NCBI GenBank assembly: GCA_036984305.1
Contig: BQWY01000001.1
Span: 2,935,501-2,999,500 of the forward strand
Length of the DNA stretch: 64,000 nucleotides
Reading direction: 5' to 3'
From: Nitrospira sp.
GTDB lineage: Bacteria > Nitrospirota > Nitrospiria > Nitrospirales > Nitrospiraceae
Below, piece by piece: positions 54,621-63,623 of the stretch; position 1 is the first letter of the stretch, and each line of letters opens with the position of its first letter. The notes below the pieces were generated by a model, which was given only the letters and a program-made list of their open reading frames with translations, was not told where the DNA came from and ran no database searches. The position numbers and the translations under genes are program-made.

Positions 54621-55598
54621 TCAGAGGACGTAGCGCTTGCCGACCGCCGAGGGTACCAGGGTATTGCCGAACGCCTTGGTCATCGCGCCAACAGCCCGCC
54701 AGCCCGTGCAATGGCCGGGGGCGAGCATCTTCAATCCAAACTTCTGTAAGTCGGAGACGGTCTCCGGAATGATCGGTTCGGTCGTTCCCGAGAGATGGAA
54801 TCCACCGAATGCGCCATAGAGGGGTACGGAGGGCAGTACAGTGCGTGCCTGTGTCAGCACATTCACGATTCCGGCATGGGAGCAGGCGGAGAACACAACC
54901 TGCCCCTTGTTCTTGACATGAACAGAAAGGAATTGCTCATCGAGGATCAACGGGTCCGGTTCCCAGCTCTGCCCGTCCTCGCGTCGCCGGACGTGACTCG
55001 GAAACCCGACTTCATAGGAAGTCACCCGCGGAATCTCTCCACTGAGATAGAACGTGCCGCCCCCGAGTACTTGTGGCTCGCGGGTGTTGATGACCGTCGC
55101 CCCCGCGCCGGCCAACGCGTCTGGTTGCGGCACCGGCTCGAACTTGAGGTACTCCCCGCTCGACAGCTTCATGGCGCGCTCGGCAAACACACCCGGATGG
55201 ACGAAACAATCCACGTTCGAACCTCGATCCTTCGAGATTTCCTCGATCGCCGCCACGAGCCCGCCGGCATGGTCCCAGTGCCCATGTGACAAGACGACCG
55301 TGCCGACGGTCGAAAGGTCCACGTCGAGGATCTCTGCATTGCGCACGAAGGTGGCCCCTTCCGGACCGGCATCGAACAACAGCGTGTGCGACGAATTCCC
55401 GACGTGCGCCGTCAATAGCAGGGACAACCCATGATGCGCACAGCACGTGGCGCGCCCGGAGAGCCGTGGCAACCGACCCATCTTCGAGAGTCCGATCCAT
55501 TCGGACGCCACGCACTCCGGATTGGTGCTGAGGCTGTCCGTCACATTGTCGACGATCACCAACACGTCGAGACGATCAGCGGGGAGAAGACCGGTCAC
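54621..55598 (-). CDS. MBL-fold metallo-hydrolase (ribofuranosyl-aminobenzene-phosphate-synthase-like)
   Basis: About 325 residues. It starts with DVLVIVDNVTDSLSTNPECV and carries SHGHWDHAGG, HPGVFAERAM and VVFSACSHAGIVNVLTQA, as in the large MBL subfamily that includes methanopterin-related synthases. GTG at 55598 has GGAAGGA about 11 bases upstream; longer starts carry this ribosome site inside the frame. The true substrate is unknown; the subfamily name comes from distant archaeal homologues. One half of a diverged repeat pair lies just upstream. Confidence 0.85.
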   Translation of the reverse strand: MTGLLPADRLDVLVIVDNVTDSLSTNPECVASEWIGLSKMGRLPRLSGRATCCAHHGLSLLLTAHVGNSSHTLLFDAGPEGATFVRNAEILDVDLSTVGTVVLSHGHWDHAGGLVAAIEEISKDRGSNVDCFVHPGVFAERAMKLSSGEYLKFEPVPQPDALAGAGATVINTREPQVLGGGTFYLSGEIPRVTSYEVGFPSHVRRREDGQSWEPDPLILDEQFLSVHVKNKGQVVFSACSHAGIVNVLTQARTVLPSVPLYGAFGGFHLSGTTEPIIPETVSDLQKFGLKMLAPGHCTGWRAVGAMTKAFGNTLVPSAVGKRYVL

Positions 55599-55643
55599 GG
55601 AGTATGCGCTTCCTTCCAATACGGTTTACGCGGGACGAATCGA

Positions 55644-55733: not shown

Positions 55734-56570
55734 TCAGCCGCTGGTGGTCCAAATGCCCACCTCGGAGCGTCCGACGATGACACTGTGATGTGCCGCCACG
55801 TCTTTGCTCAACCGGTCCCGGAGCGTCGATACATCGACCTCCTCAGGTGTGGCCACCTGTTGTTGTTCAATGGTGGGGAGAAGGGACTCAACCATGTCTC
55901 CGACCGCCATCAGCCACTCATGGGCATGGGGAGCGGTCGCGACGAACGTGGACATCCGCAGAGTCGGCGCGGGAAGTCCCGCTCGAAGAAACGTCGGGTA
56001 GACCTTGTCGAGGAAACTCCACGATTGCCCGCTCAAACGCGTCGTGTCGACGATCCAACGGCAGGCTCGATCATAGAGGGGGACGGGCGGAAACGATCGC
56101 ACGCACGAAAAGTCTGGTTCGTGAAAGACGAGGAACCCTCCGTCGACCAGATGCCGGGCGAGCCCGCGCAGCATGGTCGCGGGATCGGCCTGGAAAGGCA
56201 GGACATACCTTCCCACCACCGCGTCGAACGGGACGTCGAACGCCATCTCAGCCGGATCGCCCTGCTGGAACTGAACGTTGCGGAGACCACGGCTCTGGGC
56301 GGTGCGGGTCGCTGCCGTGACGGCGGCCGGCGCTCTGTCAATGCCGATCACCTCGCCGGTCGCCCCAACCAGATCGGCTGCCAGAAACGCGACGTCGCCT
56401 GCCCCGCTCCCCACGTCGAGCACCCGCATACCATGCATGATCCCCGCTTCTTGCAGAAACCGCCGCGTGACCGGCGCCAGGAAGGTCGCTTGCGCGCGAA
56501 GACGCTGCGACTCACGCTCGGAGTGACCGAGGACGTACGGAGGGTCCGATTGGTTCCTGGCGTTCGTCAT
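55734..56570 (-). CDS. Class I SAM-dependent methyltransferase
   Basis: About 278 residues from the ATG at 56570. The SAM motif reads MRVLDVGSGAGDVAFLAADL, followed by GEVIGIDRAPAAVTAATRTA and FQQGDPAEMAFDVPFDAVVG. This is a UbiE/methyltransferase-11-like layout. A C-terminal region of about 100 residues may bind the acceptor. No strong ribosome-binding site is visible. The acceptor is unknown; neighbours are the MBL enzyme and the membrane protein. Confidence 0.87.
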   Translation of the reverse strand: MTNARNQSDPPYVLGHSERESQRLRAQATFLAPVTRRFLQEAGIMHGMRVLDVGSGAGDVAFLAADLVGATGEVIGIDRAPAAVTAATRTAQSRGLRNVQFQQGDPAEMAFDVPFDAVVGRYVLPFQADPATMLRGLARHLVDGGFLVFHEPDFSCVRSFPPVPLYDRACRWIVDTTRLSGQSWSFLDKVYPTFLRAGLPAPTLRMSTFVATAPHAHEWLMAVGDMVESLLPTIEQQQVATPEEVDVSTLRDRLSKDVAAHHSVIVGRSEVGIWTTSG

Positions 56571-56720
56571 GCGTGAGACTTCGATTGTACGATTGGATCG
56601 ATCATACACACACATCGAGGATGGTGCCAGACGGGAAGCGTGACCGACGAGGTAGGTTCAATCAGACAGAGCAGAAGAGGGGATGGAATCCCTTTGCTTA
56701 GATCTCGGCGGAAACGAAGA

Positions 56721-56772
56721 AACGGGGACAGGCTGAGCTGACCCCGTTTTCGACACGAGTTTCAAACGTGTC
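56721..56772. repeat. GGGGACAGGCT palindromic element (RAYT/REP-like) with second hairpin
   Basis: AACGGGG (56721-56727) with CCCCGTT (56742-56748) form an inverted repeat, with an inner CAG/CTG pair. It includes GGGGACAGGCTGAG. A second hairpin follows: GACACG (56752-56757) with CGTGTC (56767-56772). It lies just downstream of the small membrane protein gene. The GGGGACAGGCT string resembles elements found next to Y1 REP-type transposases. Confidence 0.6.
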
Positions 56773-56785
56773 CGATTACTTCGGC

Positions 56786-57208
56786 CTAGTAGTACCTGGC
56801 GCGGTCTCCCGCAAAAAACGCCGTCGAGTCCCGAATGTCCAAGACGAGCGAAATCGTGTTGGTCACGATAACCCAACCGAGCCACGCCTTGAACCATCCG
56901 CTGGCGCCGGGAGGTAGATCCATCCACCGGAACGCGAGCCATGGCAGGACGAACAGCCACAGGGCGTGACCTGCACCGAGCAGTCTCACGAACCCCATGG
57001 CCTGATACACCCGGACCATGAATACGAGCCCCAGCACAATGGAGATCCACAGCACCACCGCTTCCATTCTTGGGAAGAACAGGAACCCCGCGGTGTTCGC
57101 CGCGACCAGGTTCCAGACAAACGCACGCGGCCCTGGTTTGAATCGCACCAGAGAAATGTAAAACAGGCAGTACAATGCCCGGACGAACGACACATTTGAG
57201 GACGACAT
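56786..57208 (-). CDS. Small multi-pass membrane protein
   Basis: 140 residues with about four hydrophobic helices: FVRALYCLFYISLVRF, AFVWNLVAANTAGFLFF, VVLWISIVLGLVFMVRVYQ, ALWLFVLPWLAFRW and a terminal WLGWVIVTNTISLVLD. GGAGGT lies at normal spacing before the ATG. It follows the diiron gene with a gap of about 29 bases and probably belongs to the same transcript. An overlapping frame (56658-57227) is a shadow. No family is recognised. Confidence 0.8.
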   Translation of the reverse strand: MSSSNVSFVRALYCLFYISLVRFKPGPRAFVWNLVAANTAGFLFFPRMEAVVLWISIVLGLVFMVRVYQAMGFVRLLGAGHALWLFVLPWLAFRWMDLPPGASGWFKAWLGWVIVTNTISLVLDIRDSTAFFAGDRARYY

Positions 57209-57237
57209 GGCGAGGAACCTCCTTCAATACACGCCGC

Positions 57238-58149
57238 TCAGCAAAACGCCGGCGCGATTGATTCGACGCGTGCCCTTGCCGCCGGGCTGAGGCGCTCCAG
57301 TGTCGAGAGAACCTGTTCGTGAGTCATGGCGGAGCCAAGATAGGTCCAACGATTGGCCTGCAACTGTGCTCGTTCGAACTGATCCTTCTCCCCTGCATTC
57401 AGCCCGCGCCCGGTCGCCCGCGTGAACGCCTCGAGGTCGAAACTGACCTGCTGCTTGAGGCCCGTGTCGATCAGGCCGCCGATCTCCAGGTACTCGTCAA
57501 CCACCCGGTCGATCTCGGGAGCGCTGCGCCCCTCAGCCAGCGCGACGACCATGAGCGTATCGAGCTTGGCGTGTTGCGCCTCCTCCATCCAGTGATGCTT
57601 GAGCAGGCTCTTGAACTGCGCATCGAGCTGCCGATCTTCCCGGATGCTGTCGATATAATGACGCTGCGTCATCCACTCGATGTGCAGGATCACAAGCCCG
57701 ACCGCCAGCGGATCGTGCGCCAACACGGCTTTCGCGATCTCTTCTGGCGGACCGATGACCGCGCACGCAGTCCCGAATCCGCGCGCGAATTCCTCGCGGA
57801 AGCGCTTGAACAACTGAATGTGCTTCGCCTCCTCACCGGCGAACTGCAAGAGGGCTCGCGTGCGGTAATCGTCCGGCTGAAGGTGCGGACGTGCCTGGTC
57901 CAGCACGTAGGGCAGGATAAACTCTTCGACGAGGCCGAAGATGGACAGATAGGCGTTCCCCCTGATCTGGTTCAACACCCGCTGCTCCTCCGGGGTCAGG
58001 AATGAAAGCTGTTCCACCCGCGCCAATGACTCGGGCATGAACGGTTTCGAGAAGTCGAGGCGCTTGCCTCCTCCGATCAGATCCTCGACGCGCCAATGAA
58101 TGCCCTCCGCCGTCGCAAGGGCCGATTGATAGGTATACGTTTGACTCAT
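57238..58149 (-). CDS. Ferritin-like diiron carboxylate protein
   Basis: 303 residues from the ATG at 58149 (GGAGG upstream), no signal peptide. All six ligands of a ribonucleotide-reductase-type diiron site can be placed: E75/E76 in GLVEEF, E107 and H110 in GEEAKH, E158 in HIEWMT, E190 and H193 in MEEAQH. This is the E...ExxH...E...ExxH pattern of a four-helix bundle that activates O2. Without a tyrosine radical signature, a diiron oxygenase/oxidase is more likely than a reductase. Substrate unknown; a divergent AraC regulator suggests inducible use. Confidence 0.85.
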   Translation of the reverse strand: MSQTYTYQSALATAEGIHWRVEDLIGGGKRLDFSKPFMPESLARVEQLSFLTPEEQRVLNQIRGNAYLSIFGLVEEFILPYVLDQARPHLQPDDYRTRALLQFAGEEAKHIQLFKRFREEFARGFGTACAVIGPPEEIAKAVLAHDPLAVGLVILHIEWMTQRHYIDSIREDRQLDAQFKSLLKHHWMEEAQHAKLDTLMVVALAEGRSAPEIDRVVDEYLEIGGLIDTGLKQQVSFDLEAFTRATGRGLNAGEKDQFERAQLQANRWTYLGSAMTHEQVLSTLERLSPAARARVESIAPAFC

Positions 58150-58316
58150 GACATGCCTCCTGGTGTGGGTGATTGGTTTCACGGGCGGTCTCGCCTCGTG
58201 CTGGCGAAAGTATCCGCGATATGAGCCAATGAGACTATGACTGAGACTCCGTGAGTATTGATTGGAACGCCAAAATCTGTTCGAATCAGGGCCCCACGGA
58301 ACAGTCGCGAGAACTC

Positions 58317-59315
58317 ATGGATGTCCTGTCCGATGTCTTGCGTGTGATTCGGCTGACCAGCGCCGTCTTTTTCACGGCCAGGCTTTCTTCACCCTGGTCG
58401 ATCGCCTCTCCGCCCTCAGACGACCTCGTGCGGTACTTACGGCTGCGTGCCGAGAGCATTGCGCTGTTCCACGTGTTGGTCGAGGGAGAGGGCTGGATCT
58501 CCATCGAGGGACACGCCCCGCTCAGGATGGAAGCGCACGACGTCGTCATCTTTCCGCATGGCGATCCGCACGTCATGTGCAGTCACCTCGGCGCAAAGCC
58601 TCATCCGATCGGTAGCCTGTTGCCAACCCAGCACTCAGAAGAGATCCTGCGGCTCGATCACGGCGGAGGCGGAGCCACCACGCGGTTCGTCTGCGGATAT
58701 CTTCACTGCGACCAGCGCTTCAATCCGCTGATCGGCGCATTACCGCCGATGCTGTACGTGTGCGGGCGGGATCGCGCCGGGCGAGGAGAGACGACCGAAC
58801 GCGCCGACGTCGCCTGGGTCGACGCAACCGGCTGGCTCGCCACTACGCTGGGGCATACGATCGAGGAGGCCGACGGGTTGCGCCCCGGCAGTCCCGCGAT
58901 GTTGGTGCGATTGACGGAGTTAATGTACGTGGAGGTCCTGCGGCGTCACATGGAGCAACTGCCGTCCGGCCATAGAGGTTGGCTAGCCGGCGTGAAGGAT
59001 CCGGAGGTGGGACGGGCGTTGAAACTGCTCCACGCCCGACCTGAGCATCAATGGACCGTGGAGAACTTGGCGCGCGAGGTCGGCGTGTCGCGTTCCGGAT
59101 TGGCGCAACGGTTTGCCGAGTTGACTGGGGAGGCGCCCATGCGATACTTGACCGGCTGGCGTATCCAACTGGCTAAACATCTCATCCTGCAAGCGGACCT
59201 TTCGATCGCAGAGGTGGCGGATCGTGTGGGGTACGAATCGGAGGCGGCCTTCAATCGCGCGTTCAAACGTCACGTTGGAATCCCGCCGGTCGCATGGCGC
59301 AAGAAAAGCTCCTGA
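58317..59315 (+). CDS. AraC-family regulator with N-terminal cupin
   Basis: From the ATG at 58317 the 332 residues start MDVLSDVLRVIRLTSAVFFT, typical of AraC regulators with a cupin sensing domain (VLVEGEGWISIEGHAPLRM). The C-terminal 100 residues form the two helix-turn-helix motifs (VENLAREVGVSRSGLAQRFA, IAEVADRVGYESEAAFNRAF). It is divergent from the diiron gene, 167 bases apart, so it is the likely regulator of that operon. A GTG at 58251 is an alternative start. Confidence 0.9.
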   Translation: MDVLSDVLRVIRLTSAVFFTARLSSPWSIASPPSDDLVRYLRLRAESIALFHVLVEGEGWISIEGHAPLRMEAHDVVIFPHGDPHVMCSHLGAKPHPIGSLLPTQHSEEILRLDHGGGGATTRFVCGYLHCDQRFNPLIGALPPMLYVCGRDRAGRGETTERADVAWVDATGWLATTLGHTIEEADGLRPGSPAMLVRLTELMYVEVLRRHMEQLPSGHRGWLAGVKDPEVGRALKLLHARPEHQWTVENLAREVGVSRSGLAQRFAELTGEAPMRYLTGWRIQLAKHLILQADLSIAEVADRVGYESEAAFNRAFKRHVGIPPVAWRKKSS

Positions 59316-62387: not shown

Positions 62388-62942
62388 TTAGGAAAAGTTG
62401 AGAGCAAAAAAGGGAGCGCCTGGCGGAACCTTCGCCTCTGTCACTGCTTGAATGATATCCTTGGCTTTAGCAAAGTCAGTGCCCTTTGCTTCACCCTGAT
62501 GGAACAGGCCTCTCAGCTCATCCTCTGTGATCTTGGTACGTTGACTCACGATACTCGCAATCTTCCCCTCATCTCCCTTAAAGCGACTTACGGTCTCTTG
62601 CAGTTGCGACCATGAAAGTTGAACTCCCTGCCCGAACCCCCACTGAATCCCATGAAATAGGAATGTGGAATTCTCATTCGCATAACGTTCGTCTGCTGCA
62701 AGGAAGACGACGTTTGCGATCGAGTCAATGCTTCCGATGTTATGCATCACAAGGGGGACTGGCAGCGCCCGCAGGTAGTTATGCAGAGTAATACCTGCGT
62801 CTACAGATCCGCCTGTAGAAGAAAACAAGAAGTAGAGCTTTGTGGCATTGGTCTGAGTGAGCACCTGTGCACACGCCTGCATGAGGCTCTTCGCCTTCTG
62901 CTCATTAATGTTGTCATAGTAACTCACATACGCGATGGACAT
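62388..62942 (-). CDS. ClpP-like serine protease family protein
   Basis: 184 residues with the ClpP/SppA core: LYFLFSSTGGSVDAGITLHN (oxyanion STGG near 42-45), MHNIGSIDSIANVVFLAADE (candidate nucleophile S74, S71 less likely), and STFLFHGIQW (candidate H97). There is no signal peptide. The protein lacks ClpX/ClpA partners in the window and is distant from housekeeping ClpP, so it is a stand-alone paralogue, possibly of plasmid or defence origin. Composition is less GC-rich than the average. Neighbour: a DUF4145 gene. Confidence 0.85.
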   Translation of the reverse strand: MSIAYVSYYDNINEQKAKSLMQACAQVLTQTNATKLYFLFSSTGGSVDAGITLHNYLRALPVPLVMHNIGSIDSIANVVFLAADERYANENSTFLFHGIQWGFGQGVQLSWSQLQETVSRFKGDEGKIASIVSQRTKITEDELRGLFHQGEAKGTDFAKAKDIIQAVTEAKVPPGAPFFALNFS

Positions 62943-63065: not shown

Positions 63066-63623
63066 TCAGGTGGCCGCCTGTGGAACGCGAGCTGGAAATT
63101 CATAGATGAACTTCAACAGCATTTCGGTGAAAGCAATCAGTTCTTCCGCGTCCGCCTGACTCATAAGTGTGATTTCGTGCGTCGCCTCGTTTCCTTTTTT
63201 TCGTATGTGATCGACCCAACCTTTGCCATTTGGTGGGATGAAGCCATTGTCTGCCAGGTAGCTAACGTACTCAATGAACTTCAGTCCTTCCTTCGCTCCT
63301 TGTTTGACGGCGATGTTCATGAGCATCTTCCGCGAGGTGAGTACGGACGCGGTGAACGCTGAGGCCCCACAGCAGTTGCGCGCTTCTCGGTACAGGCTCG
63401 CGAGCTCTTGCGGGACGTGAGCGACTTCATTGCCCGGCACGACACCTGGCACTTGGCTGGACTTGCCTTCAAAGTATGAGGGTTTGTCACAGTGAGGGCA
63501 GATGTAAATGCGCAATTGTGCGTTGTTGTGGTGATAACCACGATCATTGGCTACGTTGAAGCCGCAGTACCCACAACGGAATGGTCGTGACCCAATTCCC
63601 CCAACGCCGTTCCATCCGCTCAT
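63066..63623 (-). CDS. Zinc-ribbon DUF4145 protein
   Basis: 185 residues. C17/C20 (CGYC) and C42/C45 (CPHC) form a zinc ribbon, followed by the DUF4145 helical domain: LYREARNCCGASAFTASVLT, WVDHIRKKGNEATHEITLMS and ADAEELIAFTEMLLKFIYEF. DUF4145 often occurs in restriction or other defence loci but its own role is not known. AGGAGG lies before the ATG. The ClpP-like gene lies downstream on the same strand, 123 bases away. Confidence 0.88.
   Translation of the reverse strand: MSGWNGVGGIGSRPFRCGYCGFNVANDRGYHHNNAQLRIYICPHCDKPSYFEGKSSQVPGVVPGNEVAHVPQELASLYREARNCCGASAFTASVLTSRKMLMNIAVKQGAKEGLKFIEYVSYLADNGFIPPNGKGWVDHIRKKGNEATHEITLMSQADAEELIAFTEMLLKFIYEFPARVPQAAT

Follow-up and report, generated by a model that had tools for sequence, protein, structure and literature searches.

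In a 64,000-nucleotide stretch of the genome of Nitrospira sp. (assembly GCA_036984305.1, contig BQWY01000001.1, positions 2,935,501 to 2,999,500 of the forward strand), hereafter called the window, a gene for a diiron protein lies divergent from a gene for an AraC-family regulator, and we consider it probable that this locus is an inducible, AraC-controlled unit with an AurF-type diiron enzyme, belonging to a mix-and-match kit that also draws on OsmC proteins and S-adenosylmethionine (SAM) methyltransferases. A regulator-plus-enzyme unit is supported by comparison with related loci, as set out below. The family assignment, ligand pattern, fold, operator-like site and partner genes rest on sequence comparison or structure prediction, and from these we infer DNA binding and activation by the regulator, the O2 chemistry, the class of substrate and the order of steps, the enzyme chemistry being deduced from family membership. 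No description of the AraC-diiron unit was found among the literature matches listed, which were open-access papers, and where plasmid records annotate the diiron gene, which three do, its product is called 'hypothetical protein'. The central features of the locus are the following:

57238..58149, minus strand: AurF-like diiron protein, 303 aa, predicted ligands E75, E107, H110, E158, H186, E190 and H193
58317..59315, plus strand: AraC-family regulator with Cupin_6 sensor domain and HTH_18, likely start M23 (ATG 58317), mechanical GTG start 58251
58235..58267, minus strand: putative AraC operator in the diiron/AraC gap, direct repeat CAATCA-n15-CAGTCA with half-sites 21 bp apart
58150..58316, no strand: divergent promoter region between the diiron gene and the AraC gene, intergenic sequence

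Three open reading frames occupy the locus, at 56786-57208 (minus; a small membrane protein, discussed below), 57238-58182 or 58149 (minus) and 58251-59315 (plus). The diiron frame could open at GTG 58182, giving 314 aa, while the similarity of its relatives starts at ATG 58149 (303 aa), which has AGGAGG 6 nt upstream. Of the 15 related loci that pair an AraC gene with a diiron gene, 10 show similarity to the regulator from residue 23 or 24 onwards; because of these homology limits and because the putative operator overlaps the mechanical GTG start, the start of the AraC gene was moved to M23 (ATG 58317), which appears the most likely one.

Relatives of the diiron protein were drawn from plasmids (10 records), two genomes of the same family and a scan of species genomes (best 80 kept), giving a set of 92 loci and, with the window, 93 sequences. 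The scan of species genomes confirmed at least 492 relatives among at least 593 pattern matches, so that the diiron family is not a product of chance. In the alignment of 93 sequences, every one has E75, E107, H110, H186, E190 and H193, and 92 of 93 have E158, whereas position 76 is E in 82, R in 9 and Q in 2, which makes E75 the first carboxylate ligand. The preliminary description of this locus, made by eye, had thus placed six of the ligands correctly (E75, E107, H110, E158, E190 and H193), but it had left E76 as an alternative for the first and had missed H186. The resulting order agrees, with similar spacings, with that of the three-His diiron N-oxygenases AurF and CmlI and of the hydroxylamine oxidase DnfA, the pattern of which is given as E, ExxH, E, HxxxExxH and as the same in AurF and CmlI (PMC9478400). 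By alignment, then, the diiron protein carries the predicted four-carboxylate, three-His pattern of these enzymes.

The fold points in the same direction. A structure model of the diiron protein (predicted local distance difference test, pLDDT, 95.2) is aligned by VIA-align best with CmlI (Z 19.9, 268 residues, root-mean-square deviation 3.7) and AurF (Z 19.6, 272 residues, root-mean-square deviation 4.0), at 10-13% identity in the structural alignments, and an AurF/CmlI fold is accordingly predicted. Ribonucleotide reductase R2 and the R2-like ligand-binding oxidases (R2lox) have the ferritin-like helical diiron fold in common with it, but reach lower Z (<=16.5 vs 19-20), and their sequence matches are weak (best E 0.015). 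The structure alignment drew on the window protein and on 53 of the 80 scanned loci. The AurF model PF11583 is matched at E<=1e-3 by 45 of 54 family members. The comparison with AurF and R2 that the preliminary description had proposed by HMM, made here by profile and by fold, places the protein closer to AurF. No NCBIfam model matched the diiron protein at E<=1. Other PF11583 proteins (L117-L120, L137-L140, L143, L144) were found in a set of 20 relative genomes; by eye, they have no histidine four residues ahead of the last ExxH, and the eight that were aligned appear to be without the third histidine. Taken together, the CmlI/AurF-like ligand pattern and predicted fold, the missing third histidine of the other PF11583 proteins and their weak profile kinship (see below) indicate a separate AurF-like subfamily with a three-His pattern, although the same Pfam model matches both groups. 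The subfamily also differs from AurF, CmlI and DnfA in having OsmC and methyltransferase partners and many types of regulator.

The window regulator matches Cupin_6 at 138.1 bits (cut-off 26.7) and HTH_18 at 84 bits (cut-off 33.6) in Pfam, and is by these profiles a Cupin_6 protein with a C-terminal HTH_18 domain of the AraC type. Its best NCBIfam match is the RclR-type AraC regulator (NF040475), but at 91.1 bits against a cut-off of 400 it falls well short of that model. The divergent arrangement of a cupin-AraC gene and the diiron gene, which the preliminary description had pointed out, recurs: a Cupin_6-AraC gene is directly divergent from the diiron gene in 15 of the 92 relative loci, and Cupin_6 was found by Pfam in 13 of 87 scanned genes upstream of the diiron gene (87 of 90 genes, L032, L081 and L084 being excluded and the gene of L075 being swapped for its AraC gene).

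The paired loci also have an operator-like site in common. With relaxed half-sites, a direct repeat at a spacing of 21 is found in 8 of the 15 AraC/diiron gaps, while any other spacing from 10 to 39 occurs in at most one region, and the window gap shows a direct repeat at spacing 21 only. A 33-bp matrix was built from the 15 AraC/diiron intergenic regions of other bacteria, with the window excluded; its best position in the 64 kb on both strands is 58235-58267, at 19.9 bits, the next being 8.3, and none of 2000 shuffles of the window intergenic region reached 19.9 bits. When 1.13 Mb of sequence from the relative loci was scored, the training sites topped the ranking, as expected by construction, and three further positions reached 19.9 bits (see below); at that rate some 0.0004 such sites would be expected by chance in the ~280 positions of the window gap. 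Weaker sites stand before the diiron gene in L072 (16.0 bits) and L045 (14.1 bits). In the window's own genome, the pattern derived from the window site occurs once at zero mismatches and once at three. The TGAGAC repeats noticed by eye in the window gap were rejected as an operator, with no forward copies in the 15 other gaps and one reverse copy (L095).

Regulators of at least five unrelated classes adjoin the diiron gene. In the 92 loci, labelled by BLAST to chosen representatives, we counted AraC-Cupin_6 (15), BTAD-type regulators (15), extracytoplasmic function (ECF) sigma factors (12, often with a Ser/Thr kinase), sigma-54 activators (6), DJ-1-type AraC proteins (2), a kinase alone (2) and LysR (1), and no regulator was found in 39. 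L070 was relabelled as LysR, and L089 (by Pfam) and L096 (which clusters with L089) are the DJ-1/PfpI-type AraC proteins, counted apart; L054 is labelled BTAD by BLAST, and Pfam shows a hydrolase domain only. On a quickly built tree with a single support measure, the AraC label changes 6 times, at least 5 of these changes being forced by well-supported branches, compared with 15.0 in shuffles; a change may be either a gain or a loss. On this tree the window protein clusters (support 98) with four Pyrinomonadaceae proteins, one of which has an ECF sigma factor beside its gene and three of which have no regulator that was found. Its nearest relative among the matches listed is 72% identical, and the diiron gene is present in 3 of 295 genomes of the phylum, its own included (the others being G194 and G250), for which horizontal acquisition would be the simplest reading. 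Spread by viruses or phages was rejected, as 12 pattern matches in viral contigs contained no true relative and there was no phage match.

The gene directly 3' of the diiron gene encodes, by Pfam, an OsmC protein in 31 of 86 cases, and among 103 downstream operon genes (of 112; 8 long and 1 short were excluded) there are 38 OsmC proteins and 13 SAM methyltransferases. Among 103 control genes of the same loci (sampled from 448) the largest family has at most 3 members; the OsmC and methyltransferase models are absent from the top 25 of the 165 control families, and hence each number at most 2 there. Genes in the relative loci were called with our own scripts instead of being taken from annotation, and short contigs are frequent. 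The OsmC subtype is matched by its profile in 40 of the 92 loci, on which the profile was itself trained, so that an independent count is given by the Pfam tallies; the subtype is present in 14 of the 15 AraC loci, the exception being L083, and a shorter OsmC occurs in three further loci (L055, confirmed, L056 and L058). In all of 37 aligned OsmC partners there is one conserved cysteine, and in all 37 a serine stands at the second site, which we take to be the usual position of the resolving cysteine; further cysteines in single members are not conserved. A hidden Markov model (HMM) of AraC-linked methyltransferases, trained on 11 loci outside the 92 and including the second AraC locus of the window's genome, scores 192-364 bits in 9 of the 92 diiron loci, with 8 of these matches on the same strand as the diiron gene; a further 5 loci score 38-48 bits. 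An AhpD profile found no match in the 92 loci at E<=1e-8. Among single loci, L094 (7001-12060) holds a tandem duplication with diiron-OsmC twice around another gene, and L076 (7001-11305) one with a second OsmC gene. L093 combines AraC, diiron, OsmC and methyltransferase genes. In L027, L033, L048 and L070, the region 3' of the diiron gene or the OsmC gene contains a small gene of the globin type (PF01152) and after it one of the guanylate-cyclase type; PF01152 has four members in the downstream tally, that of L027 being Pfam-confirmed.

The kit appears, by similarity, to be dispersed over at least three loci in the window's own genome, namely AraC-diiron, a second AraC with a methyltransferase, and a sigma-54 activator with OsmC. 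This genome has five OsmC matches, two of which match the partner profile at 172-174 bits, and one of these partner-type genes directly follows a sigma-54 activator whose identity with the activators beside diiron-OsmC in L023, L038 and L043 is 62% over 639-645 residues. The second AraC protein is 43% identical to that of the window and faces a methyltransferase which is 54% identical to the gene directly 3' of the diiron gene in an acidobacterium (L020). The three loci may work together. A search of the genome for ammonia monooxygenase gave no match there and none in the controls either, and is hence uninformative.

Close relatives of the window AraC abound in the phylum, the best 14 being 42-44% identical to it, and no diiron gene was found within the ~1.5-kb flanks of these 14; by eye, the divergent neighbour is a SAM methyltransferase in 12 of the 14, and a CMD/AhpD-like gene lies past the methyltransferase in 5 (one Pfam-confirmed). 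On plasmids, where the best 30 of 1,900 matching records were taken and six loci of the 30 opened, the AraC genes neighbour OsmC (L162), a methyltransferase (L164, L166), GFA and then a methyltransferase (L163, L167) or a DsrE-like gene (L165). The AraC gene of L162, a Bradyrhizobium locus, faces OsmC with a 25.4-bit site in the gap; the gap of L165 scores 29.4 bits, those of L163, L164 and L167 are weaker at 9.6-15.3 bits, and that of L166 holds no operator-like site.

On the reading that we prefer, the Cupin_6/AraC regulator would sense a small-molecule or redox signal, bind the direct repeat with 21-bp spacing in the divergent promoter and thereby switch on the diiron gene. The AurF-type enzyme would activate O2 at its three-His/four-carboxylate diiron site and oxygenate a small substrate, probably a toxic or xenobiotic one; the single-Cys OsmC partner may handle peroxidic or electrophilic products, and in some bacteria a class I SAM methyltransferase may cap the oxidised product. 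More tentatively, it is possible that these proteins form a widespread inducible pathway, in which AurF-type oxygenase, single-Cys OsmC and a dedicated SAM methyltransferase would work one after another on a single class of toxic compounds, and which was repeatedly placed under AraC, BTAD, ECF sigma factors with kinase, and sigma-54 activators, the steps being split over three loci with separate regulators in the window's genome.

Several observations weigh against this account. No OsmC gene adjoins the window's diiron gene, so that the diiron-OsmC operon of the relatives is not seen here, and the close OsmC subtype was not found in 52 of the 92 loci, some of which lie on short contigs. The window AraC is nearer to same-phylum AraC proteins without an adjoining diiron gene (42-44%) than to diiron-linked ones (32-40%), two diiron-linked Novosphingobium AraC proteins come only at rows 14 and 15 of the best 30 plasmid AraC proteins, and the AraC gene of L084 runs in two frames. 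Three positions in the 1.13 Mb reach 19.9 bits without having been in training: that of L070 lies ~120 bp before the diiron gene, the regulator there being LysR, and the two others, in L089 and L073, do not stand before the diiron gene. As the AraC relatives with other neighbours show, the operator-like site goes with this family of regulators and is not restricted to diiron genes; its presence in the window indicates a promoter under that regulator, not a diiron-specific site. The window protein scores 27.6 bits with PF11583, below the curated cut-off of 29.6, while several orthologues in relative genomes are at ~29.5 to 39 bits, and hhalign against the eight other PF11583 proteins is weak (probability 1.3% and 21%). 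Ordered by E-value, the Foldseek matches are led by R2-like oxidases, with AurF (2jcd chain) at rank 21, although by TM-score that chain reaches 0.65 vs 0.40-0.46 at ranks 1-19.

The head of the Foldseek list is one of the points that would suit a ferritin-like stress protein that is not an oxygenase, whose diiron site consumes O2, peroxide or free Fe2+ as an oxidase, peroxidase or iron buffer, with OsmC as a second peroxide remover. The conserved cysteine and the serine at the second site in all 37 OsmC partners would fit such a role as well, and so would the CMD/AhpD-like proteins near the diiron relatives in L015 and L016. We nevertheless hold it to be unlikely, since the three-His pattern is of the AurF/CmlI/DnfA type, CmlI and AurF top the VIA-align comparison, and the enrichment of methyltransferases downstream fits product modification better than iron storage. 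A detoxifier of a single inorganic toxin, whether an oxidant of organoarsenicals or arsenite or a DnfA-like hydroxylamine oxidase, is brought to mind by the seven-ligand pattern in common with DnfA and by relatives of 31-35% identity that lie within arsenic-type clusters of two same-family genomes, both with LMWPc and a methyltransferase, one with an SBF permease (L015) and one with an ArsA ATPase (L016). These two relatives, however, form a separate clade on a long branch. Of 86 diiron genes, just that of L016 was seen to have ArsA as a neighbour, and the common partners include no arsenic family, which leaves this explanation very improbable. The two possibly represent a separate functional branch. 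In both L015 (G194:C6:164000-177000) and L016 (G250:C18:29500-42500) an ECF sigma factor and a CMD/AhpD-like protein lie near the diiron relative.

The preliminary description had favoured a triad in which the regulator, the oxygenase and a small membrane protein encoded next to the diiron gene act jointly on a membrane or hydrophobic substrate:

56786..57208, minus strand: small multi-pass membrane protein, 140 aa, probable co-transcription with the diiron gene (29-nt gap), not a conserved partner

Because the ATG of this gene stands 29 nt past the diiron stop and is preceded by AAGGAGG, a good ribosome-binding site, co-transcription in the window is plausible, as had been proposed, but no conserved partnership follows it: the membrane protein was found in none of the 92 relative loci (tblastn, E<=1e-3). 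Its family occurs instead in 7 of 198 phylum genomes (its own included), with no diiron gene in the ~1.5-kb flanks of nine other loci. The membrane protein was thus rejected as a conserved partner and part of the unit, the argument for a membrane or hydrophobic substrate falls with it, and we regard the triad as improbable. The preliminary description would have given up the unit if the triplet were absent from related genomes; the triplet is indeed absent from the 92 loci, while the AraC-diiron pair recurs in 15 and stands. That even this pair arose by chance, from a horizontally acquired diiron gene landing beside an unrelated AraC gene, is suggested by the occurrence of the diiron gene in just 3 of 295 phylum genomes, by the failure to find an AraC gene beside its nearest diiron relatives and by the likeness of the window AraC to same-phylum AraC proteins with other neighbours. 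We give this little credence, as the AraC-diiron pairing is found on separate branches of the tree, and the site in the window gap, far above the rest of the window, is common to other diiron/AraC gaps.

The membrane protein has no Pfam or NCBIfam match at E<=1, and a paralogue in its own genome, 37% identical and without Pfam match, lies at G000:C1:1592439-1592840 (L111). Beyond it, the preliminary description had taken a methyltransferase (55734-56615) and a metallo-hydrolase (54621-55619) as possible members of the pathway; both are doubtful as partners, and the former was rejected as the linked methyltransferase, with at most 57 bits against the linked type and generic similarity. The absence of a reductase context that it had noted was borne out, with no ferredoxin or reductase among the six neighbouring genes scanned with Pfam. 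The gap between the membrane protein and methyltransferase genes contains an 8-bp inverted repeat (AAACGGGG...CCCCGTTT) at 56720-56750, a 31-bp stretch of which no further copy was found within the window at <=3 mismatches. Farther off, the frames at 62388-62942 and 63066-63623, both on the minus strand, resemble by eye genes for a serine protease of the ClpP type and a DUF4145-like zinc-ribbon protein.

If the AraC-controlled diiron unit is as we propose, a widespread and uncharacterised diiron family would become testable, with a probable operator, candidate partners and an expected chemistry, and a subtype of OsmC would gain a concrete partner reaction. The family would then also provide a case of one enzyme kit recruited by many types of regulator.

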